A stretch of DNA of 64,000 nt from a virus, in IMG/VR virus record IMGVR_UViG_3300047476_000972, positions 1 through 64,000 of that record; one strand, written 5' to 3'. Under the pieces are notes generated by a model. That model saw only the letters and a program-made list of their open reading frames with translations. It was not told the DNA's origin and did not search any database. A program made the translations under genes and the position numbers. Within the stretch, counting starts at the first letter, position 1; every line of letters starts with the position of its first letter. This document shows positions 15,106 through 61,449 of the stretch, piece by piece.

Positions 15106-15119
15106 CAACTACTAAGTAA

Positions 15120-15162
15120 AACGGGTGGCGCACTGGTCTAATAAGCTAGTACGCCACCCGTT
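15120..15162 (+). terminator. Long hairpin after the major tail gene
   Basis: A perfect 11-bp stem, AACGGGTGGCG (15120-15130) with its complement at 15152-15162, can continue after one mismatch by about five more pairs into the loop. It begins 14 bases after the major tail stop. There is no T-tract, so it may attenuate transcription or protect the 3' end of the abundant head/tail mRNA rather than fully terminate. Confidence 0.6.
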
Positions 15163-15183
15163 AAACTTAGAAGAGAGGTTTAT

Positions 15184-16489: not shown

Positions 16490-16999
16490 ATGACAACGAC
16501 CGCTATTGACTTTACTGGTGTTACCGAAGATGCAACAAACCTTCGTGACATGATGGAAGGTGTACTCGAGCGCGTCCAGTCTATTTTTCAGTCCTACAAC
16601 GTAGAGCTTCCTCAGAGGAAGTATTGGACGATGGGGCAACCAGCTATTGATTGTGAGCAGCTGGTTGTTTCATTCGTTCAGATGTATTTAGGCGCGCCTG
16701 GCGCTCAGGTTGCTGAACCTCAGCGTTGCCACGTTCCTCGCAGTGCGACTCTTAACATTATGATTTCTAGGGCTACTCCTATTGTTGGTCAGAATGGTAG
16801 ACCTCCAGCTCCTACAAAGATTCAGCAAGCGTCCGAGACTCTGGCAATTGACTCATGGGTTCTTATGCAGTCAGTAAACTTGCTTGATCAGTGGGATGAG
16901 ACTGGCTACGGCGTTGGTGTTATTGCAACTCTAGAAGCTGGATCGCCTGAAGGTGGGTTCCAAACCACGACTATGAACGTCACTATGGCGGTCCCATAA
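16490..16999 (+). CDS. Probable neck / tail-terminator protein
   Basis: A 169-residue protein starting at ATG 16490. It contains QLVVSFVQMYLGAPG, a CHVPRSATLNIMISRATPIV stretch and WVLMQSVNLLDQWDETGYG, and a beta-rich end. Between a connector and a gp10-like neck gene, tail terminators or head-completion proteins are usual, so the assignment is positional. No catalytic motif is visible. Confidence 0.45.
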   Translation: MTTTAIDFTGVTEDATNLRDMMEGVLERVQSIFQSYNVELPQRKYWTMGQPAIDCEQLVVSFVQMYLGAPGAQVAEPQRCHVPRSATLNIMISRATPIVGQNGRPPAPTKIQQASETLAIDSWVLMQSVNLLDQWDETGYGVGVIATLEAGSPEGGFQTTTMNVTMAVP

Positions 17000-17000
17000 A

Positions 17001-17525
17001 ATGCCAGCTTGGGGACTAGTCCCAGACAGTCCGTGGATATATGCGGCTCAGAAGTTTGGTGGTAAATATAAAGGAAAGTATCACCCGAAGCCACTTGGAC
17101 GAGGTGGACTTTCCGCTGGATTTACTTTTGCAAGCTCTACAGTCAAAATATATAAAACTGCTCTTAACTACCAGACTCACGATCCGTCTGGAATGGTTGG
17201 TTCTTACCTACACAAAATAGGAAAAAGAATTGAAAGAGGGGCTAAAAGACAAGTTGGAGTTCAGAGTGGCAAGCTGCGCCGTAGCATTAACCTACAACAT
17301 ATAGCTTTTAGAGAAGGTGCAGCCATTAAGGTTGGATCTAATGTGAACTATGCTCTCCTACATCACGAAGGCTCTAGGCCTCACATAATTACCCCTGACC
17401 CACCTAATACAGTTTTGGTATTTGGCAGAGGATCTCGCGTAATTCATACCAGAGCTGTTAACCACCCTGGCACTAAACCTAATAGATACCTATCTGATCA
17501 ACTCAGAATCCACGTAAGAGGGTAA
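17001..17525 (+). CDS. HK97 gp10-like neck/tail-completion protein
   Basis: A 174-residue basic protein. KRIERGAKRQVGVQSGKLRRSI followed by IKVGSNVNYALLHHEGSRPHII is the typical pattern of the phage gp10/head-tail joining family: a tail-completion protein with a G-x-L-R-x-S-I segment then VG-x-x-x-x-YA-x-x-x-H-x-G. The sequence order (after a terminator-like gene and before the G/T chaperones) agrees. Confidence 0.7.
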   Translation: MPAWGLVPDSPWIYAAQKFGGKYKGKYHPKPLGRGGLSAGFTFASSTVKIYKTALNYQTHDPSGMVGSYLHKIGKRIERGAKRQVGVQSGKLRRSINLQHIAFREGAAIKVGSNVNYALLHHEGSRPHIITPDPPNTVLVFGRGSRVIHTRAVNHPGTKPNRYLSDQLRIHVRG

Positions 17526-17575
17526 AATAGAAGTACTGCTATTTGGCAGGAACAAGAAAGAAAGACATAAATAAT

Positions 17576-17911
17576 ATGACTAAATTCAAGGACTTTGGTA
17601 CGGGCCCAGACCTGTCCAATGTAGAGCCAATCACCTTCGCACTCCACGGAGAGACTTTTGAGTGCAAGAAAGCTGTTCCAGGTAAGCTTCTTCTTAGCCT
17701 AGTTGCTAAGTCAAAGTCGGAGGATCCAGCTGAAGCTGCTGCAACTATCGGAGATTTCTTCTCTAAGGTTCTACTATCTGACAGCTACACCCGCTTTGAT
17801 GCTCTACTAGAAGACCCGGATCGAATCGTAACTGTAGAGCAGTTGGGTGAGATTACTGGCTGGATTGTAGAGCAGTTCGGTGACCGCCCGGAAGAGCAGC
17901 CAGAGGCTTAG
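17576..17911 (+). CDS. Tail assembly chaperone G
   Basis: A 111-residue acidic protein read from ATG 17576; an in-frame TTG at 17543 exists but the ATG with the preceding AAGAAAG tract is preferred. The text (PITFALHGETFECKKAVPGKLLL, EAAATIGDFFSKVL, DRIVTVEQLGEITGWIVEQFG) matches the style of siphovirus G proteins, which lie directly before the tape measure and are extended by a -1 frameshift. Here the -1 frame is open from 17884 across the stop at 17909-17911. The chaperone coats the tape measure during tail assembly and is not normally in the virion. Confidence 0.75.
   Translation: MTKFKDFGTGPDLSNVEPITFALHGETFECKKAVPGKLLLSLVAKSKSEDPAEAAATIGDFFSKVLLSDSYTRFDALLEDPDRIVTVEQLGEITGWIVEQFGDRPEEQPEA
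17884..17911 (+). promoter_or_regulatory. Probable -1 frameshift zone joining G and T
   Basis: The -1 frame has a TGA at 17881 and then stays open to 18273, while the zero frame stops at 17909-17911, so any shift must happen here. The best slip candidate is C CCG GAA at 17887-17893, which re-pairs well for Pro (CCG to CCC) but poorly for GAA to GGA. No perfect heptamer exists. The G/GT frameshift is conserved across siphoviruses, which supports its existence despite the weak site. Confidence 0.55.
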
Positions 17912-37048: not shown

Positions 37049-37500
37049 TAGACACGCCTGGATGGTACGAAGAAGCTGAATGCTCTAAGCCAATATATAG
37101 AGATGTAATTAAGAACTTCTTTCTGAACAAGTCGGCTCAGCAGTTGCCTGCGCTGAAGATATGCGATGCATGTCCAGTAAAAAGAGATTGCCTTAAGATG
37201 GCCCTAGAAAATAAAGAAATATGGGGCATATGGGGAGGGCTCACTCCTAAAAAGATCCGTAGAACTCTATCTGTGAATTGGCAAGGCCAAGAGATGCGTC
37301 ACAAGCGCCCACCACTATGTCCTGCCTGTGAGGCAAAGACTGACAAACTTATAACTAAGACAGTCAATCGCCCTAACGGTGGGCGCTGGGCAACCATGAA
37401 GCTAGTCGAGTGTGTGGAGTGTAATTTCTCATGGCAGAGCAGAACAAGTGCTAATGCTGTAGAGGCGTTTCACTTGCTAAAGACTAAGAAGAAGTCCTAG
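37045..37500 (+). CDS. WhiB-family transcription factor with C-terminal zinc-ribbon
   Basis: A 151-residue protein from TTG 37045 (AGGA upstream). Cys13, Cys40, Cys43 and Cys49 form the WhiB 4Fe-4S cluster set (C-x26-C-x2-C-x5-C), followed by GIWGG at 61-65 and a basic segment, the hallmark of Wbl proteins that bind sigma factor and DNA. An extra C-terminal part, C92-x2-C95 and C123-x2-C126, looks like a zinc ribbon, which usual WhiB proteins lack. It indicates an actinobacterial host. Phage WhiB proteins can redirect host transcription. It overlaps convergently with the next gene by 17 bases. Confidence 0.85.
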   Translation: MIDTPGWYEEAECSKPIYRDVIKNFFLNKSAQQLPALKICDACPVKRDCLKMALENKEIWGIWGGLTPKKIRRTLSVNWQGQEMRHKRPPLCPACEAKTDKLITKTVNRPNGGRWATMKLVECVECNFSWQSRTSANAVEAFHLLKTKKKS

Positions 37501-38575
37501 CTGCAGCCTTGTAATACTCTAGATTATTTTTCAAACGTTCGTTGTTTGGGTCGTGAAGTACGGCAGCTTCTCCATAAACCAAAGCTTCTTGGTACATCCC
37601 TAGGTTGTATGCAGCTATAGAAGCTAAGTCGTGCGGTAAGGCTCCCCAAGCAAAGTCCTCGCATAGATAGTCCAATGGCTTCTCTTTGATCTTGAGAGCG
37701 TCTAGCGAAACCTCGTAGCAATCAGCCCAGTTCTTTTCTTCGTACAAAAATTGCGCGTACTCTACGAGGGCTTCCCTGCGTCCGGGGGCTTCATCTATAG
37801 CTGAAACTAGCCATGTAAAGCGATTCTCTGGCTCGCACTTAGCTAGGTAGCGCATTGATGCGGCTCGCTCTGGCCTCCAAGTTGCGCTAGGAATTGATAG
37901 GTGCCTTTTGAATTCTTTAGCAGCTTCTTCGTACTGAGCGTAGAAGAAGAGCTCCCTAGCGTAATAAAAAGCACTTCTATCGTCGTTTGGTGTTTCTTTT
38001 ACAGCGAGTTTTAGTAGTGGAAGGTACTGCCCACGGCTCTTAGTAGGGTCAGCTCTGTGGTGCAGAATTACCTCTGGGATAGTTACTCGACTCTCTGGTC
38101 GATCCATTTCCCAGTAAAGAGTCTCGTGGCAAGGTTGACGCCAGCGGTATCCAAAGCGTCCATGAATTTTGTCAGCATAGAACTGAATGCCTGGAGTTAC
38201 TCCATCTTCTTTCCAGTTCCAGATGTAGTCATAGGCGATGCGATCAATGTTTCCGTTGGTTTCTTGCCAAGCCTTATCTATTGCATCTGCCCAGCCTGGT
38301 TGTAGATACTCGTCTAAATCGATTGATAGGCAGATATCAATATCGGCTGGAATCAAACTTAAGGCCGTATTTCTAGGAACATCAAAACGCCACGGCTTCT
38401 GAGTAATCTCATAAACAACTGCTCCGCGCTCTCGTAGACGTTCTACGGTGCCGTCTGTTGATCCGGTGTCGCAGACTAAAACAAGATCTGCTCCCTCGTT
38501 TGCATCCATAAATTTATCTACATGTTTGATCTCGTTTAGTGCGATGGCATAGACACAAGTTCTTACTTTACGCAT
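37484..38575 (-). CDS. GT-A family 2 glycosyltransferase with C-terminal TPR-like repeats
   Basis: A 363-residue protein with CVYAIALNE, CDTGSTDGT and the D86-L-D88 (IDLDEYL) metal/nucleotide-sugar motif. From about 190 it has helical repeats (RSAFYYARELFFYAQYEEAAKEF, ASIAAYNLGMYQEALVYGEAAVLHDPNNERL) like TPRs, which could hold a protein substrate. It is a paralogue of the gene upstream, which it overlaps by 8 bases. Confidence 0.8.
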   Translation of the reverse strand: MRKVRTCVYAIALNEIKHVDKFMDANEGADLVLVCDTGSTDGTVERLRERGAVVYEITQKPWRFDVPRNTALSLIPADIDICLSIDLDEYLQPGWADAIDKAWQETNGNIDRIAYDYIWNWKEDGVTPGIQFYADKIHGRFGYRWRQPCHETLYWEMDRPESRVTIPEVILHHRADPTKSRGQYLPLLKLAVKETPNDDRSAFYYARELFFYAQYEEAAKEFKRHLSIPSATWRPERAASMRYLAKCEPENRFTWLVSAIDEAPGRREALVEYAQFLYEEKNWADCYEVSLDALKIKEKPLDYLCEDFAWGALPHDLASIAAYNLGMYQEALVYGEAAVLHDPNNERLKNNLEYYKAAARTSS

Positions 38576-39614
38576 TTGATCCCTCGTACCACTTCATGTT
38601 TTCAATGAGTCTTTGATTATTCGGATCTAATTCTAATGCTAGCTTCCCGTGTTTAAGTGCCAGCTCGATTTTCCCGCAGTAGTATGCGGAAAGGGCGACA
38701 ATGTCATGAGGACCGTACCCCCATGCTTCTTTAGAGTAAGTGAATCCGTCACGACGTTCAGCAACATCTAAACACTCTAATGCAAGCCTAAGAGCTATCG
38801 AGTGATCTCCTTCAGACGAGTAAAGTTTTGCCATATCGTATAAAGTTTCTCGCTCTTTACTCTGTCCATAGGCTCTCCACAGCTGTACCATTGCAGTATC
38901 TGTATCCCCTTTTGCTTGGTAGTTGCGTGCAATGTTTCTTGCAATATAGGATTTAACAACAGGGCCATCGGAGCACTTATCATAGCTCTCGGAGCGCCAA
39001 AATATAGCTTGATCTAGATTTCCTATAGCCTCGTAATCATTTGCTAAGAAATACCTAGTGCGCCAATTTTCATCGCCCTCGCTAATCTTCTTGTGTAAGA
39101 GGTTCAAATAGCTGCGTCTACTCTTTGTAGTGTCTTGCCATTCGTCAAGAAAAATTTGATCATTCCACAGGGTTTTCTCTGAAATAGACCAAGATAAGGT
39201 CTCGTGAACTGCACCCACCCATTTGCAATTATGACGAGAGTGGATCTTAGAATGCCATTGCCAAGAACCGCCATTGTGTCGGTATCGGTGATTCAAAATA
39301 GTGGCGTCTAGTTCCCATGAATCCTCTAGATGTTTTCGCCAGCCTGGCAACAACACTTCATCAATGTCTAGCGAGACTGCAATGTCTACATCTGAGGGTA
39401 GCAAATTTAGAGCTGCATTTTTAGCGTCATCGAATCGCCAAGGAGCTATTTTGATTTTGTAAACCTGAATTCCTAGCGACTCTGCAAGGACACTAGTTCC
39501 GTCTGTAGACCCCGTGTCTGCCAGCAAAATATAATCTGCTTCTTTCGCAGACTCTGCCCAGCGGGAAATGAATTGCTCCTCGTTTAGAGCTATAGCGTAG
39601 ACCGCTACCTTCAT
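38568..39614 (-). CDS. GT-A family 2 glycosyltransferase with C-terminal TPR-like repeats (paralogue)
   Basis: A 348-residue protein with the same layout: VYAIALNE, ADTGSTDGT, D83-I-D85 (LDIDEVLLPGW), then HNGGSWQWHSKIHSR and HETLSWS, and TPR-like repeats ending LALELDPNNQRLIENM. The pair is probably a tandem duplication with divergent acceptor specificity. Two bases separate it from the metallophosphoesterase gene. Confidence 0.8.
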   Translation of the reverse strand: MKVAVYAIALNEEQFISRWAESAKEADYILLADTGSTDGTSVLAESLGIQVYKIKIAPWRFDDAKNAALNLLPSDVDIAVSLDIDEVLLPGWRKHLEDSWELDATILNHRYRHNGGSWQWHSKIHSRHNCKWVGAVHETLSWSISEKTLWNDQIFLDEWQDTTKSRRSYLNLLHKKISEGDENWRTRYFLANDYEAIGNLDQAIFWRSESYDKCSDGPVVKSYIARNIARNYQAKGDTDTAMVQLWRAYGQSKERETLYDMAKLYSSEGDHSIALRLALECLDVAERRDGFTYSKEAWGYGPHDIVALSAYYCGKIELALKHGKLALELDPNNQRLIENMKWYEGSNA

Positions 39615-47100: not shown

Positions 47101-50695
<3,595 letters not shown>

Positions 50696-50696
<1 letters not shown>

Positions 50697-51058
50697 TATT
50701 TAGTTACCTCCGCGCGAACAGTTAGGTTTCCTTGAAGGAGGTTGGTAACTGTTCCAGTTGATGTTTCTTCTAGCTCTAGATCGTATACATAGATACCTGG
50801 AGTCATAGCAGCTGTCTGAGACGGGGTTATTAATATGATGACAGAACCTATTGACGCATTTATAGAGAGGCCGTTTGATGGAGTAGTTAGCTCCAGAATA
50901 GTGTTGAGATCGGGGGTCTTCTCGCGAATATCCATGCGAGCTGTGTATCCAGTTAAAGGAACTACATTTTTTGCAGAACTTTTAAGCGCTATAGATCGAT
51001 GCAAGGTAGCACCTTGATCTACTACTATATCATAAACATTAGTGGTTGCGCAATACAC
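50696..51058 (-). CDS. Fibre-base/baseplate-like protein, 120 aa
   Basis: From GTG 51058 with AGAGGA. A beta-rich protein ([56 protein letters not shown]) of the kind that forms the base to which fibres attach. A second, partial copy lies at 63870-64000. It directly precedes collagen-like fibre 2. Confidence 0.55.
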
Positions 51059-51114: not shown

Positions 51115-51714
51115 CTAGTTGGTTAGCTTTTTAATCCAGAATGCTGGGGCCATATACTTTACCCCTGCTAGTACAGGAATGGACTCGTGGTAGTACGGAG
51201 CTACTGAGGGAAAGATCACTACACTACCAGCTTCTGGCTTAATCCTCACCCCGAACTCTGTAAAGTTAAGCTCTCCACCCTCCACGTCATCATTTAGATA
51301 TAAAACTGCAGACATTAGTGGCTCTATAGCAGGGTCTCCGTAGTAGTCCACGTGGGGTCCCATAGCTGAGCCTGTAGCATATTTTGAAATACTAAGAGGC
51401 AGTGGGTCTTTGTACTCGATGTAATTTTTACGGGCATAGTCTTGTCCGACTTTTGTTAGTGCATCTTTTATCGTACTATAGACTGCCCGAGCAGCCTCGG
51501 AGCTGGTACTTAGCTTGGATTCATCTGTGGACTTCTTTTGGCCAAAAACATACTTTGGCCCCTCTCCCGAGGCTACCCACTCGCTCCATTTTTCAATGGC
51601 ATCATTGTCAGTAAGATCTTCGTCAGATGTTTCGATTAAAGATACTAGGTCGCTAGGGGCGTCTACTACATTTTTATAGTAGTAAATCTTGTCTGCAAAA
51701 ATTTCTGGTTGCAT
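51115..51714 (-). CDS. 2OG-Fe(II) dioxygenase (prolyl 4-hydroxylase-like) 1
   Basis: I place the start at ATG 51714, overlapping the upstream stop (TAATG), rather than at a longer alternative 27 bases earlier. GPHVDYY gives H-x-D, the later PYYHES the second His, and GVKY the Lys expected to bind 2-oxoglutarate in P4H-type enzymes. A DDVEGGELNF turn precedes the second His. Such enzymes hydroxylate Pro, Lys or Asp side chains in proteins. Target unknown; collagen-like fibres are next door. Confidence 0.8.
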   Translation of the reverse strand: MQPEIFADKIYYYKNVVDAPSDLVSLIETSDEDLTDNDAIEKWSEWVASGEGPKYVFGQKKSTDESKLSTSSEAARAVYSTIKDALTKVGQDYARKNYIEYKDPLPLSISKYATGSAMGPHVDYYGDPAIEPLMSAVLYLNDDVEGGELNFTEFGVRIKPEAGSVVIFPSVAPYYHESIPVLAGVKYMAPAFWIKKLTN

Positions 51715-52448
51715 TAGGCGAACTTGTTGCCCTTTTCCCACTCTACTTTTTGCTCCGCCTGAGCCTTACGGACTTCTCGAATCTCTTCTTCCCAAGCTGC
51801 CTTCTTTTCATCAGAGTAGACTGCGTCAGCGAAGTCCCAGAAGGAAACCATGGTGTAGCGAGTGCCTTTTAAAATTTCTTGAACTCCGTGAATATTCTCT
51901 ACTCCACCTGGGAAACAGATGTATGAATAGGCGCGTGGCTTAAATTCGATATCGTGCTCTGGGAAATACAACTCCCCGCCCTCGTAGTCATCATTCAAGT
52001 ACAGAATCCCGACATACTTATTAATTTCAAATGCATTAGGGTGACCATCAAAGTCGGAGTTGTCCGAGTGCGGGGCCGCGAATCCGCCTACATCCCATTT
52101 CTGAGCGTGGGAAGTATTTGCCACTACTTCGCGATCAAAGACTAGTTCAATAGCTTCTTGAAACTTCTGTCGAAGTAACTCGAAGAATCGTGGTGGTAGA
52201 GAGTACTCTGCCAGTTTAGGATCGTCTGGGTGGATTCCCATTCCAGAAGAGCCATAGAAAGCGATGTCGCCCCACTGGGAAGAGTATGACTCAATGTAAT
52301 CAATGATGCTCTTAGCTGCGTCTGGCGTCACAAAATTAGGAATCTCTATGATTCTGTTCTGCGGAATACCGAGCTCGCCTTTAACAGTAGGCTCGTCTTT
52401 GTAGATGATAAAAGTGTCTTTATCAATAGTTTCAAGATATAGAGACAT
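51714..52448 (-). CDS. 2OG-Fe(II) dioxygenase 2
   Basis: A 244-residue enzyme with H127-x-D129 (APHSDN), H187 (ENIHGV) and R197 (KGTRY) as the co-substrate-binding base; DDYEGGELYF is shared with the neighbours. An extra C-terminal helical stretch, rich in Glu, Lys and Ala, follows residue 205. It overlaps neighbours on both sides by TAATG. Confidence 0.8.
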   Translation of the reverse strand: MSLYLETIDKDTFIIYKDEPTVKGELGIPQNRIIEIPNFVTPDAAKSIIDYIESYSSQWGDIAFYGSSGMGIHPDDPKLAEYSLPPRFFELLRQKFQEAIELVFDREVVANTSHAQKWDVGGFAAPHSDNSDFDGHPNAFEINKYVGILYLNDDYEGGELYFPEHDIEFKPRAYSYICFPGGVENIHGVQEILKGTRYTMVSFWDFADAVYSDEKKAAWEEEIREVRKAQAEQKVEWEKGNKFA

Positions 52449-53221
52449 TAGTGGTCAATACCTTTCAGGTTATAGCGTCCAGAGTTTCGCTCTACGCGTT
52501 CGCGTTCTTTTTCCATTTCGGCCCAGACTTCGTGGCCATATTTTGCTTGACCATCGCGCCACTCCTGAGTGCCTTCGAATTCATATTGCCAGAAAGATCG
52601 TACGAAGTACTTCTGACCAGCGGTAGTTTTATTAACGCCATGGTAGTAAGGAGCTCGAGAAGGGAACACTAGAACGTCTCCCGCCTGAGGCTTGTGCATG
52701 AAGAACTCTACGTCTGTCCCTTCTTCGTTGAGGACCTTAAAACAGATCTCTCCGCCCTCATAGTCTCCATTTAGATACATGGTGCATGTCATAACTGGCT
52801 TGTCTCCGGGAGCGTCTGCGCGCTCCTGTTGAAAGTCTGTGTGATAGAACATGCCCACGTTAGTGTCTGCTCCGCCATCTGTTTTGTACATACAGATAGC
52901 AGGGGCGGTGAATTTCCAGTTGGGAATGCTGTCAGTGAAGTAAGTATCATAATAATGCTTGGTAGCTTCATAAAACGCTTGAAGAATTTTTAAAGCAGGA
53001 TCAGTTAGATCCTTATCACCAGCTAGTAAGGCCTGAGACCACTCTTCTTCATTTGGAAATGACGAAAATGTGTGATTCCTGACCTTAACAGTGGTCAAAT
53101 CTCCGAAAGTGAACCACTGACGCCACTCACTATTGTTCTTGTGGAACTCGATGATCTCTTCTGGGTTTTCATAGAGACCTCGATACACAATCACATTTGG
53201 GTAGAGTTCCAGAACTTCCAT
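52448..53221 (-). CDS. 2OG-Fe(II) dioxygenase 3
   Basis: Start at ATG 53221 overlapping the upstream stop; an in-frame ATG 12 bases upstream is less likely. Metal ligands H127-x-D129 (MFYHTDF), H194 (PYYHGV) and K204 (GQKYF), numbered from this start; GDYEGGEICF replaces DDYEGGEL. The C-terminus is charged. Family: 2OG-FeII_Oxy type P4H. Confidence 0.8.
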   Translation of the reverse strand: MEVLELYPNVIVYRGLYENPEEIIEFHKNNSEWRQWFTFGDLTTVKVRNHTFSSFPNEEEWSQALLAGDKDLTDPALKILQAFYEATKHYYDTYFTDSIPNWKFTAPAICMYKTDGGADTNVGMFYHTDFQQERADAPGDKPVMTCTMYLNGDYEGGEICFKVLNEEGTDVEFFMHKPQAGDVLVFPSRAPYYHGVNKTTAGQKYFVRSFWQYEFEGTQEWRDGQAKYGHEVWAEMEKERERVERNSGRYNLKGIDH

Positions 53222-53904
53222 TAGATACCGCACTGGCTTTCATGAGAAAGAATAGTCCAGAAGAATGGCACTGTGTAACGGATTCCAGACGTAATCTGAG
53301 TTACGCCGTGAATATACTCCATATCGCCTGGGAAGAAGTAGGCAGCTCCAGCCTTTGGCTTGAATTGGATTCCCTGATTAGGAAAGTACAACTCCCCGCC
53401 TTCATAGTCATCATTGATGTAGAAAAGACCAGCAATGTCGTAGTACGGGAAGTCGTTTGGCTTTCCGCGATCTTCTCCCTCGTGCAACTCTTTATCTGCG
53501 TGAGGCATCTGTAGCTGGCCTGGCAACCAACGAACTAGTGCTGGAGATGTAGGAACCGCATCTACTTTAAAGAACGCGTCTACTTCTCTCTTTAGTCGTT
53601 CAACCATTCCGTTGATAACTTCTGGAATCTTAGGGTCTACGGCACGAATAGTGTCATAGGTAGCTACTCGATCTTTCCAATACTCCGAGTCATAAATGAC
53701 AGTGCCCTCTTCGTTATAGTGGGTTTCTGTGACATCCCATGAGGTGTTTGATCGGATAAACGCATTGAGAGTCTGTAGCTCCTCGGGCGTCATAAAATCT
53801 TCTCTGGCCTGAATGTTGGAAGGGCTGTTTCCAAAGAATCCAGAAGGTGTTATGGACATTCTGTTTTCTAGCCTAGAGTTTGAGTAGTCTTCTAAAGGTT
53901 CCAT
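53221..53904 (-). CDS. 2OG-Fe(II) dioxygenase 4
   Basis: A 227-residue enzyme; H135-x-D137 (QMPHADKE), H199 (EYIHGV), R209 (GIRY). The insert between the first His and the beta-strands (HEGEDRGKPNDFPYY) is longer than in the neighbours. ATG 53904 has AGGAT upstream. First gene downstream of the DUF6065-like pair. Confidence 0.8.
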   Translation of the reverse strand: MEPLEDYSNSRLENRMSITPSGFFGNSPSNIQAREDFMTPEELQTLNAFIRSNTSWDVTETHYNEEGTVIYDSEYWKDRVATYDTIRAVDPKIPEVINGMVERLKREVDAFFKVDAVPTSPALVRWLPGQLQMPHADKELHEGEDRGKPNDFPYYDIAGLFYINDDYEGGELYFPNQGIQFKPKAGAAYFFPGDMEYIHGVTQITSGIRYTVPFFWTILSHESQCGI

Positions 53905-53916
53905 GCATCTATCCTA

Positions 53917-54648
53917 TCATTCATAAACTCTTCGAGTCCAAACTTCCTTCTGGTAGACTCCCCCGTCTGGAACACGATACTTCTTGCTATTAGCGTTGTT
54001 GTCCATGGCCATTTTCATGTATGGGACCTTAGCATCAACTTCCGATTCCCAGTCCTCGCGCTTGAAGGGCAACATCTGAGCGTAAGGAGTACCTGCTGGC
54101 AGAACTCCAGTCCAACCTTTAACAATAAAAAATGGCATAGTCCCTGGAAGATTGACTTTGTCGTTGTCAATGATCCCGCTTGTTGTTAAAAATGGTAGCT
54201 CAAAGCGGTTAAATGGTTGAGTGTATAAGACGCTATACCCGTCTGGTACCTGCACTGCCCAGTCCGACCACCATGCAAAATGAACTTCATGATACCCCAT
54301 CGGGGCTTTGAACTGAGGCATCGGCGGCCTGTTTTGAATGAAATCTTTATTTTGAGGATCTAATACTTTGGCTTTAATTACGCCATTGTCTTCATAGAAC
54401 TCGATGTCACAAGGGGTGCGGTAGACATATCCGGTGCCCATGATGTCAAAAACAGCAGGGCAAGCCTTCCACGTTGGAATTTTTCCTCCGACATAAGGAT
54501 CTTTCCAGTGTTCGCCATCTGGCTTGAGAGCAAAACGATCAGCTTTGCGATACCATTCAGGAATTGTCTTGATGGTCGGCTTTGGGGTTGACGGACTGTC
54601 TTCCGTTAGCCATGGGCGATTTTTGATGAATTTAATCAGTTGTTTCAA
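53917..54648 (-). CDS. DUF6065-like protein A
   Basis: A 243-residue protein from TTG 54648, overlapping its upstream gene by 17 bases. Features: IPEWYRKADRF, FAWWSDWAVQVPDGYSVLYTQPFNRFE, LPAGTPYAQMLPF. Its paralogue next door shares the PAGTP-A-x3-P signature. DUF6065-like is my tentative family call; a beta-barrel/cupin-like fold is likely. Function unknown, although being inside a hydroxylase operon is suggestive. Confidence 0.5.
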   Translation of the reverse strand: MKQLIKFIKNRPWLTEDSPSTPKPTIKTIPEWYRKADRFALKPDGEHWKDPYVGGKIPTWKACPAVFDIMGTGYVYRTPCDIEFYEDNGVIKAKVLDPQNKDFIQNRPPMPQFKAPMGYHEVHFAWWSDWAVQVPDGYSVLYTQPFNRFELPFLTTSGIIDNDKVNLPGTMPFFIVKGWTGVLPAGTPYAQMLPFKREDWESEVDAKVPYMKMAMDNNANSKKYRVPDGGVYQKEVWTRRVYE

Positions 54649-55366
54649 TTGTCATTCCTGTCACTGGGCATTTAATGGTTTTAAGTTTGATGTTCTTAGA
54701 TTCATGTTGCCCCATAGAGGAGCCGTCATAGTTGACTGCATCACGATACATCTTTGACCAATCGCCTTTAGAGTTTTTTGCTTCGGCAGCTTCGCCATAC
54801 TTTCTCAGCTCTTCCCAGTATTCGTTTGGAAGACTGCCCTCTGTTATCTCCATCTGATAGCTCGACTGCAGATCGCCAATTGATATGGGGATCACAGCTG
54901 CTACGGGAGTGCCAGCGGGGATAAAGATTTCTTTGTTTGGCTCTGTAATTTTTATAGCAAGTGGCAGCTCGCCCTTATAAAAAGAGGTGCTTAGGATAGT
55001 GGTAAATGTCTGAGTCCCTCTAATAAATTGGTTCGGCACTGGCATTGTCAGCATTGATACGTCGACGTCAGTTGAAAAAACTAGCCCAGTCTTAAAACTA
55101 AGCGTACCGTGAGCCCTACCAGTGTAGACAAACTCTTCGCCCTCTAGAATTTTGACGTGGTGTTCTTCAGAGTTTTCTACGCCATCCCAGATCGCTCGGA
55201 CATCTTTATTAAAGGAAATACCCCAGCCGAGACCATTAGTCAGTGTCATAGGAAAGCACATATACGCGTGCTTCCCTGAAGTATTGTCCATCCAGTCTCG
55301 GGTAGCACGTAGCTGCTCGATGGTCGCAGCTTTTTCGTGTAACCTTTGTACTCGGATAGTTTTCAT
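54632..55366 (-). CDS. DUF6065-like protein B
   Basis: A 244-residue protein. CFPMTLTNGLGWGISF, WDG, then FIPAGTPVAAVIP show the same family as protein A. A C-terminal part with IKCPVTGMTIETTD. Its ATG overlaps the upstream hydroxylase stop (TAATG). Function unknown. Confidence 0.5.
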   Translation of the reverse strand: MKTIRVQRLHEKAATIEQLRATRDWMDNTSGKHAYMCFPMTLTNGLGWGISFNKDVRAIWDGVENSEEHHVKILEGEEFVYTGRAHGTLSFKTGLVFSTDVDVSMLTMPVPNQFIRGTQTFTTILSTSFYKGELPLAIKITEPNKEIFIPAGTPVAAVIPISIGDLQSSYQMEITEGSLPNEYWEELRKYGEAAEAKNSKGDWSKMYRDAVNYDGSSMGQHESKNIKLKTIKCPVTGMTIETTD

Positions 55367-56115
55367 TAGTCGCCTGTCTCGACGATGAACTGGGGGCGGT
55401 GGAACTTTTCTGAATAATCAAGCATGGTAACCATCGAGTGCTTAGTTCCAGATAGAACCGGCATTGCTCGATGAGGGTACATGTAATTAGACGGGAAGAT
55501 GTATAGGTCTCCTGCAGTGGGCTTCACTTTAACATTCTGCAACCTAAAGTACAGCTCTCCACCTTCGTAGTCATCGTTAGGGAAGGCCACTAATGACGTG
55601 ACGCAGTTGTAGGAGAACCCGTGATCATGGTGCTCTTGGAAGTGCTGCCCTGGACCGTACTTAATAAAGTTAGTTGCCTCCCAGTAGCGCAGTTCTCCGA
55701 TGTTGTACATCTTGGTGTAGTGCTTTACCGCTTGGAGCTGTCGGTGATGGGTCTCTTCCCAAAGGGCTACCAGCTTCTGAGCAGCTTCGGAAGGGTCGTG
55801 CTGAATGTCTGTTTTCTTGTACTTAAAGTCAACGCAGTCGCGGTACTCTGGCATTTTTACGCCATAACCAACTAGAGCTTCCTCGTAGTGGTATTGGTTG
55901 CTTGGGTCAAGAAGTACGTCTTCTAACCGCTGAATCACCTGTAGCTCGGTTGGAATTACGTTTCTGTAAACCCAGATGCCAGACATGGGGACGACTTCTT
56001 CCGCGGTAGTCCAAGTCTTTTCTTCAATTTCATACCACTTAGTAAGACGAACATTGTGATCGTTGATGTCTTGCATCATCTTTTCTGTTGGCTTTCCTAC
56101 ATGATTGTTCTGCAT
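55366..56115 (-). CDS. 2OG-Fe(II) dioxygenase 5
   Basis: A 249-residue enzyme; H162-x-D164 (QEHHDH), H215 (YMYPHRAM), K225 (SGTKH). NDDYEGGELYF precedes. AGGA before ATG. The local pattern FVAFPNDDYEGG resembles the next gene more than others, so genes 5 and 6 are probably recent paralogues. Confidence 0.8.
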   Translation of the reverse strand: MQNNHVGKPTEKMMQDINDHNVRLTKWYEIEEKTWTTAEEVVPMSGIWVYRNVIPTELQVIQRLEDVLLDPSNQYHYEEALVGYGVKMPEYRDCVDFKYKKTDIQHDPSEAAQKLVALWEETHHRQLQAVKHYTKMYNIGELRYWEATNFIKYGPGQHFQEHHDHGFSYNCVTSLVAFPNDDYEGGELYFRLQNVKVKPTAGDLYIFPSNYMYPHRAMPVLSGTKHSMVTMLDYSEKFHRPQFIVETGD

Positions 56116-56122
56116 GATTGTC

Positions 56123-56881
56123 CTAATACTTCAACTTGTATTCTTGAATAATTGGGGATACCTTGTGGTTCACGTCTCCGCGATCGTTGTAGTCAGTCAT
56201 AATTACAACGGCATATTTTGTTCCAGAGATCATGTCTTGGGAGGCGTGCTCATAGATGTAGGTTGATGGGAAAACAACTACGTCTCCGGCCTTTGGCTTA
56301 ATAGATAGGCCGTTCATTCGAGGGAACCAAATCTCTCCGCCCTCATAGTCGTCGTTTAGATATACAACTACTGAGACAGTGCACACGTAGGTTGGGCCAT
56401 GATCAGCGTGAACCTTAAAGTGAGTTCCTGATCCTTCATACTTTACAAAGTTAAAAGCCTCGTATGAGCAGATCCCCACTCCCCAGTAGCGGCCGTAGTC
56501 ATCCACACACTGGCGAACTGCTTGGAACACGGCTTCGTGTACATCGTAGAGTTCGGCATTGTGCTCGTTACGAGGACCTAGGCCAGTGGAGTTGATTTTA
56601 AAGTCTTGTGCATTTCTCGCATTGACGTCTACGTCAGCAGAAGAAGTAACCTTTGCTCCTTGCCAACGATACCTGCCAGTGCCATCTAAATTTTTTTCTA
56701 GGGTGTCAATGTAGTGCTTACCTTGTTCTTTGGTAATTGCACCACTATAGACGTTTACGCCTAGGGCTGGATTTGCTACGGTAATAGCTGGATTAGTGGT
56801 AGCCTGTCGATCAGGCATACGATGCGCTGAGGTCTCTGACCTGTCTTTAGTAAACCAATCATTCATGCATTTAGTATACAT
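56123..56881 (-). CDS. 2OG-Fe(II) dioxygenase 6
   Basis: A 252-residue enzyme with H158-x-D160 (KVHADHGP), H212 (YIYEHAS), K222 (SGTKY) and DDYEGGEIWF. The start ATG 56881 lacks a Shine-Dalgarno; an alternative ATG lies 15 bases on. Closest to dioxygenase 5 by its ADHG/HDHG and TKY/TKH features. Confidence 0.75.
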   Translation of the reverse strand: MYTKCMNDWFTKDRSETSAHRMPDRQATTNPAITVANPALGVNVYSGAITKEQGKHYIDTLEKNLDGTGRYRWQGAKVTSSADVDVNARNAQDFKINSTGLGPRNEHNAELYDVHEAVFQAVRQCVDDYGRYWGVGICSYEAFNFVKYEGSGTHFKVHADHGPTYVCTVSVVVYLNDDYEGGEIWFPRMNGLSIKPKAGDVVVFPSTYIYEHASQDMISGTKYAVVIMTDYNDRGDVNHKVSPIIQEYKLKY

Positions 56882-56898
56882 ACGAATATGTAAAAATG

Positions 56899-57675
56899 CT
56901 AGATTATCGGGACATATCCTTCAAGATTTTTTGGGAAGTCTGCTGGCGGGCAGTAGCACTCTGGGCACCCTATACACTCTTTGTTTTTAGGGGGTAGCCC
57001 CTCAAATGAGATAGGCTTTCCGGTGGCTTCGTAGAACCGTATCTCGGCATCATGCGTATACTCTTTTGCTAATTTCCTAAAAGAGTCTTTGTCAACTGTA
57101 TTGCTGTCTAGGTTGTAGGACCAATCTTCAGGCTTAGAATATATGGCAAAAAAGACGATCATATAATCTTCGTCATTAGTTGATGGATATGGTGGCCTAC
57201 CGTGTATATGCTGTTGGCCATTAAAAAAGACAGCTGAATTTTCTTCTTCGGAGTATACGTGGCCTTCTATTTCTACTCCCCAGTCCGAGATTCCGTGCTT
57301 TACAACGCATAGATCCATCAAATACTGGCTAGAAGTGTCATCTAGATGTCTCCAAAGATATGGGACTATGTCTTCTTGTTTTTGATATCTAGCTGCAAAG
57401 ATAAAGTTTTGTTTTAGATCAGGCTCTCCCCAGCTCTCCCTTGCCAAAGCCAGCAACTCTTCTCCCACAAAATGAGGGATCTCGGGGTTACAAGTCCATC
57501 TCCCTGAGATTGTGTGGTACTTAGCTGAAGAGCCTGGTCCCCACTCTTGAGCCATAAGTACTTCTTTTATGGCATTGAAGCTTTTCTCAGAGAGCAGGTT
57601 GCTCTTCTTAAATGGTTTATACGGGGTAGGCAAAGGCCACTTTATGTTTGGACTGTTGTCTGCATAAAGTGGCAC
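56899..57675 (-). CDS. Divergent 2OG-Fe(II)-like dioxygenase with C-terminal Cys cluster
   Basis: A 258-residue protein from GTG 57675. WRHLDDTS gives H110-x-D112; QQHIHGRP gives a late His and Arg; so the cofactor fold is retained although the DDYEGGEL signature is missing. The C-terminus has C234-x2-C237-x2-C240-x-C242, which could bind zinc. Divergent relative to the other six; it could be inactive, or have a different substrate. Confidence 0.6.
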   Translation of the reverse strand: MPLYADNSPNIKWPLPTPYKPFKKSNLLSEKSFNAIKEVLMAQEWGPGSSAKYHTISGRWTCNPEIPHFVGEELLALARESWGEPDLKQNFIFAARYQKQEDIVPYLWRHLDDTSSQYLMDLCVVKHGISDWGVEIEGHVYSEEENSAVFFNGQQHIHGRPPYPSTNDEDYMIVFFAIYSKPEDWSYNLDSNTVDKDSFRKLAKEYTHDAEIRFYEATGKPISFEGLPPKNKECIGCPECYCPPADFPKNLEGYVPII

Positions 57676-57700: not shown

Positions 57701-58516
57701 TTAGAGGATTCGCATGAACCTCGGTGGGAAGAATGGGAATGATGGTGGGAAGAACGGGAAGAACGGGAAGAACGGGAAGTAAGGGAAGAACGGGAAGAAT
57801 GGGAAGTAAGGGAAATATGGTGGGAAGAACGGGAAGAACGGGAAGAACGGGAAGTAAGGGAAGAATGGCGGAAAGAATGGGAAATATGGCGGGAAGAACG
57901 GCGGGGTTGTATTGCTAGTGGAGTAGTCAGACCACGCAGAAGTTCCGTTTGCGTTGGTTACGCGAACTCTATACTGCTGTGAGGTATCTGCCTCTTGAGC
58001 TACGTTTGCAGATGTTCCTGTTGTGTTGCCTGACTTGGAGTCGGTGCTCTCCCAGTAGTATGTGCTGAGGGTTGCACCGCCAGTAGCTGGTGCTGACCAA
58101 GAAACATAGTCTGTCTGATCGCCAGAAAAGTTCTGAACTGTTGGTGCATTTGGAGTGGCAGGAACTGTAGTGATAGTTACAGAGCCAGATTCGGTTGAAA
58201 GTGCAGAAGTTCCAGCAGCATTTGTTGCTGAAACTTTAAAGGTGTATGAAGCAGCTGAATCTAGGCCACCAACAACAATCGGAGAAGATCCGCCGGTTAG
58301 GTTTGTGGCAGTGGTGTCTTCTATTCCGCTTTTATATGCAATTACAGTAAATGAAGTCGCAGAAGGAGAGTCGGCTGGGAGCTCGAAAGAAACGCTAGCC
58401 GCACCGTCATTGAAGGCGCGGTTAGTTCCGACGTTACTACCCGAAACATTTATTGGGGCTTTTGGCTCCAAAAAGTCGTTAGACGCCTGAGACTTTCTAC
58501 CAGCTCTCTTGCTCAT
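57701..58516 (-). CDS. Fibronectin-III protein with Phe/Pro/Tyr-rich C-terminal tail
   Basis: A 271-residue protein with AGGAGA before the ATG. Two FN3-type domains (about 20-118 and 120-203). From residue 205 to 267 it is almost only Phe, Pro and Tyr in FFP/YFP units, then FMRIL. The hydrophobic aromatic tail is very unusual. A tail-fibre tip, a membrane-active segment or a self-assembly tract are possible. Next to the hydroxylase block. Confidence 0.75.
   Translation of the reverse strand: MSKRAGRKSQASNDFLEPKAPINVSGSNVGTNRAFNDGAASVSFELPADSPSATSFTVIAYKSGIEDTTATNLTGGSSPIVVGGLDSAASYTFKVSATNAAGTSALSTESGSVTITTVPATPNAPTVQNFSGDQTDYVSWSAPATGGATLSTYYWESTDSKSGNTTGTSANVAQEADTSQQYRVRVTNANGTSAWSDYSTSNTTPPFFPPYFPFFPPFFPYFPFFPFFPFFPPYFPYFPFFPFFPYFPFFPFFPFFPPSFPFFPPRFMRIL
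57716..57904 (-). repeat. Tandem FFP/YFP-coding repeat
   Basis: About 190 bases of degenerate 9-base units (minus strand TTC-TTC-CCG/CCA and TAC-TTC-CCN variants) encode the Phe/Pro/Tyr tail. The plus strand reads as GGGAAGAAC/GGGAAGTAA repeats. Repeat number may vary among isolates by slippage. Not a CRISPR array: no spacers. Confidence 0.85.
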
Positions 58517-58530
58517 TTAATTCTCTCCTA

Positions 58531-61449
58531 TTAGGCGGTCAAGTCGCCGTATACCAGCCATGTGTTAGAGGCACGCTTTAATAGTGTAGCAGATGACCAG
58601 CGGGTCCTTAGCTTTAGACCCGGGGTAGCGTTTACAGTAACTCCGACCGCGCCCTCAATTGTGACTTGACCTGTATTGGTCTGAATAATGTCCAGAGTGG
58701 TTCCAACTGGATAGTCCACGGTCGAGTCTGCAGGAATTGTTAGTGTGGTTGCCGAGGTCTTGCTGATCTCTATGATGGTATCACGCTCATTGAGATTAGA
58801 CAGAGTATATGAGTCAGTCTTAGCTGAGATGGTCGTGATAGATGGAACACCTTGCTTAGTCTGAGCTCCGTCAGTGAATGCAACTCCAGATGCTCCTACG
58901 GTGACAGTTCCTGTGAATGTAGGATCTGCAGTCGGGGCCTTGGCGTCAATCTGAGTCTGAATTGCTGAAGTAACACCATTCAAGTACTGAAGTTCTGTGT
59001 TTGACACATCTCCAATAGTTGCCGATTCAGCGGTGAGCGAGTCAACCGCGATCGAAGCTAGAGCGAAGCTAGAGTGGGCAGTGTTGATAAAGACTGATTC
59101 GTCTGGCTCTGGTGTGTAGCCGTCGAAAATCTTAAATACTCCATCACTAGCATCCCTAAACATACCAGCGTGAGCATATCCAGCACCATTTACTGTGTCG
59201 TAACGACCAGCAGCCCAACCTAGGTCAGGGTTGAAGTGGACCTTGCCTCGCGCGGTTCCACCGCTAGTGTAGGTATCGGTTACGGTGCTAGTTACTGTGA
59301 AGGTAGTACTGGTTACAGCCGTAATCTCTAGGCCGTCACCAGAAATGTTGAATGAAGATGGAGTCACGCCTGTTACAGTTACATAGTCTCCGGCCTCGTA
59401 ACCGTGGGCAGCTTGAGTTGTATATACAACTTCGGTACCGCTACCAACAGCATTGGTGATGGTGCTCATGCCCGCTTGGTTGAGGTAGATCATGTTGTCG
59501 CGTAGCTTTAGGTCAGCTGCACTAACGGTTGTAGTAGTTCCTTGAACTACTAGGTTTCCAGTAATGGTTAGACCTGGAATCTCTACTGACCCAGTGAAAG
59601 TTGCCCCAGAAAGCCCAGCCTTTGCATCTAGCTGAGTCTGAATGGCACTAGTCACGCCGTTTACGTAACCAATCTCCGTTGAAGAAACATCGCCAATTGA
59701 GGTAGTCGATGGAAGTGAAATTGTTCCACTGAATGTTGCATCTGCAGTCGGTGCCTTTAGATCCAAAGCACTCTGAGTATCGGTGGAAATTGGCTTGTCC
59801 GCATCGGCGGTGTTGTCTACGTTTCCAAGGCCAACCATGCCCTTAGTAATTCCAGAAACAGTGCCGGTGAAAGTAGGGCTTTCAGTTGGAGCTTTGTCGT
59901 TCAGCTGAGTCTGGATTGCGCTAGTTACGCCATCTACATAGTTTAGTTCTGTAGTAGTGGCAGTAATTCCGTCTAGAGTGTTTAGCTCAGAAGTGGAGGC
60001 TGTGATACCGCTTAGAGTGTTGAGCTCTGAAGTAGACGCCGTGATGCCGTTCAAAGTATTTAGCTCTGAGGTGGTCGCGGTAATTCCGTCTAGAGTGTTA
60101 ATCTCTGCAGCTGTAGCTGTAACGCCATTTAGGATGTTTAGCTCTGCTGTAGTGGAGGTAATTCCGTCCAATACGTTAAGCTCTGCGGCCGAAGCCGTAA
60201 TCCCATCAAGGGTGTTTAGCTCCGCTGTCGTTGCTGTAATACCATCCAAAACATTTAGCTCTGAGCTCGAAACTGTAATACCGCTCAAGGTGTTTAGCTC
60301 AGTAGTTGAGATAACGACTCCATCTAGAACATTTAGTTCAGTGGCGTTAGCTGTAAGACCAGCGATGTTCAAGATGTCGGCTGCAGTTACAGTTCCAATA
60401 GTTGTTGATGATGGTAGCGACACGTTACCAGTAAAGGTAGGACCGTCTAAGTACGCTAGGTTAGCTGTATCAGAAATACCGTGCACCGAAGTAGTGTCAG
60501 AGTTATGGGTAGTAATAGCGGAAGATACGTCAGTTAGATACGCCAAATCTTCAGTATTGGTGATACCGTGAATATTTGTAGATACGTTGTGATCGGTGAT
60601 TGCATTATCAGCGTATGTTTCATATGCAGTCGTTAGGCTTGAGGTCAGGGATGCAATCTCAGATGAGGTTGTTCCTGCGTAGTCAAGAGAAGTCCAGGCT
60701 GTTACACCGTTTCCAATCTTAAACTTGCCAGTATTGCTTTCTAGAGCAAATACGTTTGCCGATACAACTGGGTTTGTGTTAGTCCAGTTAGTAGAAGTAT
60801 TGATCTCTAGAGTGGCTTTAGTGCCAATAGAAGTCGTGATGGTCGAAGCAAAGTTCGGGTCATCACCTAGTGCAGCAGCCAGCTCGTTCAACGTGTTTAG
60901 TGTCGTTGGAGAAGAGTCAATCAGGTTAGCAATTGCAGTGTCAGTGTATGAATTAGCAGCTGATTCTGCTGAGTCTGCCTTTGACTGAGCACCAGTCTGA
61001 GTTTCTAATTCGCTCGTATCTGCGATTCCATGAACGCTTGTAGTGTCTGCGTTGTGGTTATATACAGAGGTGTCTGTGTAATCTTTTACTTCGATTTCTA
61101 AAGCATCCACCTTCGACTGAGCGCCAGTCTGGGTCTCGAGAGCAGATGTGTCAGCGATTCCGTGAACGTTGGTGGTGTCTGAGGCATGGGTTGAAAGATC
61201 GCTAGAGGAGGCCTTTGCATCTAGCTGAGTTTGAATAGCAGAGGTAACACCGTCTAGATAGCCGATCTCGGTATCAGAAACTCCGGTCACTGCACCGACA
61301 TATGGAAGTGACGTCCACGCTGTTGAACCATTACCTACTTTAACCTTGCCAGTATCGGTCTCAAATGCGAGCTCGCCTACGGAAAGAGTAGGGTTAGTAG
61401 AGGTCCAGTTAGCCGCTGTACCGCGACGTATTTGAATTTTAACTGCCAT
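58531..61449 (-). CDS. Long repeat tail fibre protein
   Basis: A 972-residue fibre. N-terminus IQIRRGTAANWTSTNPTLSVGELAFETDTGKVKVGNG is the usual fibre-anchor domain, repeated near 215-255. A middle set of eleven 13-residue repeats (ELNxLDGIT-type) at about 371-513, several xxTSAIQTQLDAKA units, THNSDTTSVHGI repeats, and a C-terminal globular part. It should be an elongated trimeric beta-fibre. Confidence 0.75.
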   Translation of the reverse strand: MAVKIQIRRGTAANWTSTNPTLSVGELAFETDTGKVKVGNGSTAWTSLPYVGAVTGVSDTEIGYLDGVTSAIQTQLDAKASSSDLSTHASDTTNVHGIADTSALETQTGAQSKVDALEIEVKDYTDTSVYNHNADTTSVHGIADTSELETQTGAQSKADSAESAANSYTDTAIANLIDSSPTTLNTLNELAAALGDDPNFASTITTSIGTKATLEINTSTNWTNTNPVVSANVFALESNTGKFKIGNGVTAWTSLDYAGTTSSEIASLTSSLTTAYETYADNAITDHNVSTNIHGITNTEDLAYLTDVSSAITTHNSDTTSVHGISDTANLAYLDGPTFTGNVSLPSSTTIGTVTAADILNIAGLTANATELNVLDGVVISTTELNTLSGITVSSSELNVLDGITATTAELNTLDGITASAAELNVLDGITSTTAELNILNGVTATAAEINTLDGITATTSELNTLNGITASTSELNTLSGITASTSELNTLDGITATTTELNYVDGVTSAIQTQLNDKAPTESPTFTGTVSGITKGMVGLGNVDNTADADKPISTDTQSALDLKAPTADATFSGTISLPSTTSIGDVSSTEIGYVNGVTSAIQTQLDAKAGLSGATFTGSVEIPGLTITGNLVVQGTTTTVSAADLKLRDNMIYLNQAGMSTITNAVGSGTEVVYTTQAAHGYEAGDYVTVTGVTPSSFNISGDGLEITAVTSTTFTVTSTVTDTYTSGGTARGKVHFNPDLGWAAGRYDTVNGAGYAHAGMFRDASDGVFKIFDGYTPEPDESVFINTAHSSFALASIAVDSLTAESATIGDVSNTELQYLNGVTSAIQTQIDAKAPTADPTFTGTVTVGASGVAFTDGAQTKQGVPSITTISAKTDSYTLSNLNERDTIIEISKTSATTLTIPADSTVDYPVGTTLDIIQTNTGQVTIEGAVGVTVNATPGLKLRTRWSSATLLKRASNTWLVYGDLTA
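59911..60339 (-). repeat. Eleven 39-bp (13-residue) tandem repeats
   Basis: Within the 972-residue fibre the ELN start of each unit falls at residues 371, 384, 397, 410, 423, 436, 449, 462, 475, 488 and 501, exactly 13 apart. The core is ELN-x-LDGIT-x4. A strictly periodic stretch fits a triple beta-prism shaft. Copy number may vary. Confidence 0.85.

Follow-up and report, generated by a model that had tools for sequence, protein, structure and literature searches.

A conserved operon of prolyl-hydroxylase-like oxygenases as a candidate maturation cassette for a phenylalanine/proline-repeat tail protein in uncultured phages

Bases 1–64000 of the 77.6-kb IMG/VR viral record IMGVR_UViG_3300047476_000972 (hereafter the window) carry, at 51115–57675, a block of nine minus-strand genes that we read as a virion-protein maturation cassette. 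Seven of the nine encode 2-oxoglutarate (2OG)-Fe(II) oxygenases, with two non-oxygenase genes (g5 and g6) interleaved among them; on this reading, to which sequence and model evidence lead us to assign a probability of roughly 0.57, prolyl-hydroxylase-like enzymes would hydroxylate the proline- and phenylalanine-rich tail of an Fn3-domain protein encoded directly upstream. In phages, oxygenases of the 2OG-Fe(II) type are commonly catalogued among auxiliary metabolic genes without a known role. An earlier reading of the window, made from the sequence alone, knew of no described system with this arrangement, and our literature search, which covered open-licence PMC papers, likewise found neither a description of the cassette nor an existing functional assignment for it.

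Results

Seven oxygenases and two interleaved genes follow an Fn3-FFP gene

Transcription of the block runs from g9 to g1, with g9 lying 25 bp downstream of a gene on the same strand (57701–58516, the Fn3-FFP gene) whose product combines two Fn3-like domains (PF00041, 28.5 bits against a cut-off of 25) with a C-terminal (F/Y)FP-repeat tail of about 92% Phe plus Pro. Six of the oxygenases pass the cut-off of PF13640 (2OG-FeII_Oxy_3, 27 bits) at 30–48 bits: g1 (51115–51714, 43.7 bits), g2 (51714–52448, 34.9 bits), g3 (52448–53221, 36.2 bits), g4 (53221–53904, 30.1 bits), g7 (55366–56115, 47.8 bits) and g8 (56123–56881, 46.2 bits). The remaining one, g9 (56899–57675), gave no Pfam or PHROG match, PF13640 included; its AlphaFold model has a predicted local distance difference test (pLDDT) score of 89, the PDB matches listed for it are all 2OG oxygenases (best E 9e-7), and H110, D112 and H158 are invariant among 14 homologues, with R160 invariant as well. 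By its predicted oxygenase β-helix fold and HxD..H motif, g9 is a divergent 2OG-Fe(II) oxygenase, an accessory member of the set.

The sequence-only reading had counted seven dioxygenase-like genes in 6.5 kb, which holds with six members recognized by PF13640 and the seventh by predicted fold. That reading had also described many of the genes as linked by TAATG stop-start overlaps; these are present at four of the eight junctions (g7/g6, g4/g3, g3/g2 and g2/g1), the other four being a 17-nt overlap or gaps of 7, 12 and 17 nt. It had overlooked the two DUF6065-type genes, g5 (53917–54648) and g6 (54632–55366), the upstream Fn3-FFP partner and an eighth PF13640 gene outside the cassette. The last of these lies at L008:8938–9510 (70937–71509 of the record), adjoining a glutathione-peroxidase-like gene at L008:9519–10139 (record 71518–72138).

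The paralogues are intact and related to prolyl hydroxylases

Inspection of the active sites shows that the HxD..H iron ligands and the distal Lys or Arg are intact in all six PF13640 proteins of the window, with Lys in g1, g3, g7 and g8 and Arg in g2 and g4, in agreement with the earlier assignment of Lys to oxygenases 1, 3, 5 and 6 and Arg to 2 and 4. Across the window and related loci the site is intact in 498 of 498 complete PF13640-type copies (292 Lys, 206 Arg), which rules out dead paralogues, a possibility that the sequence-only reading had raised against itself. The choice between Lys and Arg is fixed by orthologous clade: 99 Lys and 2 Arg for g8, 85 Lys for g7, 68 Lys and 2 Arg for g1, 39 Lys and 8 Arg for g3, 77 Arg for g2, and 85 Arg and 1 Lys for g4. 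Pairwise identity among the block paralogues is 22–43%, and the ratio of non-synonymous to synonymous substitution rates (dN/dS) between orthologues is 0.01–0.16 where dS could be estimated, dS being saturated in many pairs. Because the paralogues are this divergent, orthologue dN/dS is low and the block recurs in many viral contigs, its existence is not a matter of chance.

Compared with the PDB, the oxygenase profile matches prolyl 3-hydroxylase 1 (P3H1; 2.9e-13), PiuC (8.8e-11), prolyl 4-hydroxylases (about 1e-9) and EGLN1 (about 1e-7). The nearest solved relatives include prolyl hydroxylases, and the predicted activity is hydroxylation of peptidyl proline. The oxygenases (51115–56881) also match PHROGs 2297 and 274, both called DNA endonuclease, and PHROG 3531, called ferrochelatase; these names look misannotated.

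An ancient, lineage-fixed expansion

A g5 query retrieved 55 IMG/VR loci, nearly all of which keep the order g8-g7-g6-g5-g4-(variable)-g2-g1 as far as the contig reaches; a second order, tail gene–X–g8–g5–g7–g6–g4, leaves the core set unchanged. The sequence-only reading had proposed a phylogeny of the seven oxygenases, and a tree built from 147 genes of 21 viruses resolves g8, g7 and g4 as clades that each contain a single gene from every virus (support 0.92, 1.00 and 1.00). The g2 clade, near-core, holds at least one gene in all 21 viruses, and the g1 and g3 clades vary. Over 50 loci, single copies were counted in 46 for g8, 49 for g7, 46 for g4, 48 for g6 and 44 for g5, with at least one copy of g2 in 45; cassettes typically hold 4–10 oxygenase paralogues. 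From the one-per-virus core lineages (g8, g7, g4) and the constant core set, which also contains g5 and g6, it follows that the expansion is ancient and that no core paralogue can stand in for another.

The cassette is thus old and widespread in uncultured phages. Among isolate phages, a near-identity search with the region gave no match, and the cassette was not found in searches with the region, the oxygenases, g5 or the Fn3-FFP protein; the last of these proteins itself gave no match there, in a search whose low-complexity filter hides the tail. One scan of bacterial genomes, using a single DUF6065 sequence, had as its sole find a 5.3-kb contig from a Chitinophagaceae metagenome-assembled genome (L191, JAFMJX010000128.1) that carries the tail gene, oxygenases, g6 and g5. 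This is probably a phage contig, perhaps mis-binned, and as a short metagenome-derived contig it says little about the host.

Beyond the core, gene content differs between cassettes. A PF11397 glycosyltransferase, from a family that we take to include the Skp1 hydroxyproline GlcNAc-transferase, occurs in 9 of 36 contigs and inside some cassettes, while the window's own record gave no PF11397 match; at L014:10773–11780 and L044:6716–7714 a PF11397 (GlcNAc) glycosyltransferase lies within the cassette, next to g9-type oxygenases. Some cassettes include a short-chain dehydrogenase/reductase (SDR) gene. TauD-family oxygenases are interleaved in the L044 cassette (14274–15191 and 16729–17610), showing that recruitment goes beyond PF13640, and a small protein that matches no known family recurs inside cassettes (L037:4659–5198 and about 21 relatives).

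The cassette tracks proline-rich Fn3 tails

Phe accounts for 49%, Pro for 43% and Tyr for 3% of residues across 105 distinct tails. Where a locus extends far enough upstream, the gene immediately before the cassette nearly always encodes a homologue with a Pro-rich tail, loci free of collagen-like genes included. The link holds from either direction. In a sample of 80 IMG/VR loci retrieved by the tail-repeat pattern alone, 54 of the 62 tail open reading frames (ORFs) that are followed by 3 kb or more of sequence show a same-strand oxygenase within 3 kb downstream, and 53 of the 62 likewise have a DUF6065-like gene nearby; an oxygenase lies upstream of the tail ORF in 2 of 31. The tail gene, in turn, is present in 34 of the 36 cassettes for which the upstream sequence is long enough. 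Of 24 repeat-bearing contigs, mostly ones with no adjacent cassette or with too little sequence to show one, 17 carry PF13640 and 14 DUF6065 somewhere, and most of the others are short. A set of 32 contigs, each 52 kb or longer, was picked by major capsid similarity only. The repeat was found in three of these, and the same three carry full DUF6065 together with 7–10 PF13640 genes; the remaining 29 capsid relatives have 0–2 PF13640 genes each.

Homologues of the Fn3 N-terminal region can be divided by the proline content of their tails, with those at 25% or above classed as Pro-rich. At least two oxygenases lie downstream of 29/29 distinct Pro-rich tails versus 0/13 Pro-poor tails, and DUF6065 is present with 29/29 and 11/13, respectively. 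Pro-poor tails (FGAFGA, FGFTP, FTPYS) are still rich in Phe, and variant Pro-rich tails (HFPP, APPVFF) retain oxygenases. Because the oxygenases track proline content, and Phe-rich but Pro-poor tails are mostly without them, proline rather than phenylalanine is indicated as the likely target. Tail length and oxygenase number are weakly related (rho 0.32, p 0.07). The Pro-poor-tail loci L285, L291, L293, L302, L305, L309, L315, L333 and L317 form a natural comparison group.

The Fn3-FFP protein itself varies in architecture. In L026, L028, L033, L036, L042 and L061 it bears a long extension C-terminal of the tail that is weakly Hint-like (17–18 bits, under the cut-off), a feature that hints at possible self-processing. 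Loci L091, L104, L118 and L123 each carry two tandem short FFP-tail genes, which in L091 and L123 come right after a collagen-like gene.

DUF6065-type proteins have a dUTPase-like predicted fold

The g6 protein matches PF19541 (97.2 bits, cut-off 26.6), and its AlphaFold model (pLDDT 88) finds dUTPase-like folds by Foldseek (best E 4e-4); superposition on dUTPases gives VIA Z ~11, with a root-mean-square deviation of 2.5–5.5 Å across 108–130 residues. The predicted fold of g6 is dUTPase-like, and a fold of this kind in DUF6065 proteins would allow a trimer. Neither g5 nor g6 matches the PF00692 dUTPase profile, and in g6 the motif-III Asp was not seen, STS standing at the expected position. 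g5 has no Pfam match and falls in phrog_7084; profile comparison by hhalign relates it to g6 with a probability of 92%. Its IIDND sequence aligns to the phage's own dUTPase, a separate and ordinary enzyme, at motif III, at an hhalign probability of only 20%, and g5 may retain nucleotide activity.

The literature search found no paper on DUF6065. Among isolate phages, g5 homologues were found only in haloarchaeal hafunaviruses (L189:7830–8714, L190:7830–8666), where they are single copy and near baseplate and tail-fibre genes, both examined cases being without oxygenase neighbours. This setting suggests a tail-related role for the g5 family.

Phage context

The window carries siphovirus-like structural genes. 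On the minus strand, a tail-fibre protein matching several tail-fibre PHROGs (58531–61449) lies upstream of the Fn3-FFP gene, and a small tail-fibre-assembly-like protein (50696–51058; phrog_1084/phrog_3304) lies directly downstream of the cassette. A WhiB-like gene, identified by eye, lies elsewhere in the record (L008:7676–7999), and WhiB matches are present in 16 of 28 related contigs; since WhiB has been described as exclusive to actinobacteria and their phages (Dishui Lake study, PMC10611076), these genes suggest actinobacterial hosts. Other genes include two glycosyltransferase-like genes with C-terminal TPR similarity (37484–39614, phrog_13126), a possible source of glycosylation here; a 1501-aa protein (6319–10824) that matches portal and head-maturation-protease PHROGs and is possibly a fusion; an anti-restriction protein with an ArdC N-terminal domain and a zincin-like metallopeptidase domain (3917–6097); and a phage-borne subtilase (PF00082) with a signal-peptide-like start (L008:12529–13728).

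Discussion

We propose that the target of the oxygenases is the product of the Fn3-FFP gene, whose tail is nearly all Phe and Pro with some Tyr. With O2, Fe(II) and 2OG, the enzymes would hydroxylate this tail, most likely at prolines, with separate paralogues serving separate positions, repeat registers or successive steps, and in place of a very hydrophobic repeat the phage tail would gain a rod or adhesive tip that is rich in hydroxyproline and probably polyproline-like. The sequence-only reading had taken the expansion to imply separate substrates; the paralogues are indeed real, intact and non-redundant, but one shared substrate with several types of site is the better fit, since it is one adjacent protein, with a Pro/Phe-repeat tail, that the cassette follows. 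For the DUF6065-type proteins, binding, presenting or assembling the Fn3-tail protein would be a likelier role than hydroxylating it, and is favoured because DUF6065 accompanies the Fn3 protein even where oxygenases are missing. In some viruses the cassette's PF11397 glycosyltransferase may place sugar on the new hydroxyls, although none was matched in the window's record. More tentatively, and rather less likely than not, these parts may together amount to an assembly line in uncultured phages, many of them probably infecting actinobacteria, in which several prolyl hydroxylases, each fixed in its lineage, work one after another on the Phe-Pro repeat, with dUTPase-fold scaffolds and an optional sugar, to yield a hydroxyproline-rich adhesive virion rod.

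Several observations weigh against hydroxylation of the Fn3 tail. PiuC, a PKHD-type enzyme, matches the oxygenase profile almost as well as P3H1, and enzymes related to the PF13640 prolyl hydroxylases have other substrates. One 38-kb contig (L119) bears a tail-like repeat and gave no match to PF13640, the 54-kb contig of L081 lacks DUF6065 and holds a single PF13640 gene, and each of two Pro-poor tails is accompanied by one oxygenase. The contrast between Pro-rich and Pro-poor tails, moreover, needs only one or two changes on the Fn3 tree. Since tail modules often travel as one unit, co-occurrence alone could reflect genomic hitch-hiking of oxygenases whose role is unrelated to the tail. The few independent events in that tree, and the presence of the cassette in only 3 of 32 capsid relatives, would fit such a history; on the other hand, the core set stays constant through two rearranged gene orders, and Pro-poor relatives retain DUF6065 but lack oxygenases, which leaves hitch-hiking with little likelihood. 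We think it unlikely, too, that the product of the cassette is a new or modified small molecule or surface glycan, or that its genes are an auxiliary metabolic set working for the host, for example in PiuC-type iron handling. Cyanophage relatives are annotated PiuC, and SDR, PF11397 glycosyltransferase or TauD-type oxygenase genes occur in some cassettes, as they do in biosynthetic clusters, but these extra enzymes are variable and outside the core, and the cassette adjoins tail-fibre genes and shows strict linkage to a single protein and to how much proline that protein contains.

A different protein substrate is suggested by two large collagen-like (Gly-X-Y) tail proteins encoded downstream at 47101–50696 on the minus strand (47101–49179 and 49179–50696, the latter with GPTGPQG repeats; both with PF01391 matches), which might be hydroxylated in the manner of animal prolyl or lysyl hydroxylases. 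Collagen matches above the cut-off are present in 25 of 38 cassette contigs, and authors working on the Baltic Sea raised collagen tail fibres when discussing a viral prolyl 4-hydroxylase, the use of which they called cryptic (PMC9301287). Full cassettes nevertheless occur without a PF01391 match on several contigs, among them G018 (the longest, at 90 kb), G013 (45.6 kb) and G015 (35 kb), which may be incomplete, and the tight neighbour is the Fn3-FFP gene whether collagen is present or absent. Such collagen-free contigs rule out collagen as the general substrate; collagen-like proteins may be an additional one, and as an account of the cassette we regard their hydroxylation as improbable. Action on nucleic acid in the manner of TET/JBP or AlkB enzymes, with the dUTPase-like proteins handling a modified nucleotide, could draw on a weak Tet_JBP match in g4, the g6 fold and the IIDND motif of g5. 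That match, at 16.1 bits, is far below the cut-off of 34.9; the cassette follows a tail gene rather than replication genes, and the phage has its separate, ordinary dUTPase, all of which makes this the explanation we would least expect to hold.

Compared with known systems, hydroxylation of the Fn3 tail has both precedent and novelty. By sequence, the nearest solved enzymes are prolyl hydroxylases (P3H1, the P4Hs and EGLN1/PHD2), which share the HxD..H and Lys/Arg site and whose known substrates are proline-containing protein segments; unlike them, the enzymes here, known from sequence, form a phage operon of typically 4–10 paralogues beside a Phe/Pro-repeat protein. For PBCV-1, a Chlorella virus, we know of no DUF6065 genes, no Fn3-FFP partner and no paralogue operon; its prolyl 4-hydroxylase is a single enzyme of an algal virus, and is thought to act on proline repeats of viral proteins. 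Viral prolyl hydroxylation of proline repeats is already a known kind of activity, from this enzyme, which is cited in PMC9301287; what is new is the multi-enzyme operon with its linked Phe/Pro tail and DUF6065 partners. The cyanophage oxygenases annotated PiuC (phrog_61) share the superfamily and the phage setting, but are about 26–34% identical and come from isolate phages, in which no cassette was found. The dUTPase superfamily resembles g6 in predicted fold (Z ~11 over about 115 residues) and differs in the profile and motif III features noted above. In the Skp1 pathway of Dictyostelium and Toxoplasma, a PHD-type hydroxylase acts before glycosyltransferases that modify the hydroxyproline (PMC3515798), a sequence of steps to which the PF11397 enzyme of some cassettes may correspond, although that pathway serves single-site oxygen sensing in eukaryotes.

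If hydroxylation of the Fn3 tail is borne out, phages would possess a dedicated multi-enzyme system, dependent on O2, Fe(II) and 2OG, that matures a tail protein after translation, with the Lys-type and Arg-type prolyl-hydroxylase-like enzymes forming a set for making patterned hydroxylated repeats. Since a specific predicted substrate is encoded in the same operon, the role of the oxygenases is directly testable by co-expression and mass spectrometry. The assembly line, were it also to prove true, would be an oxygen-dependent virion maturation of a kind not described before.

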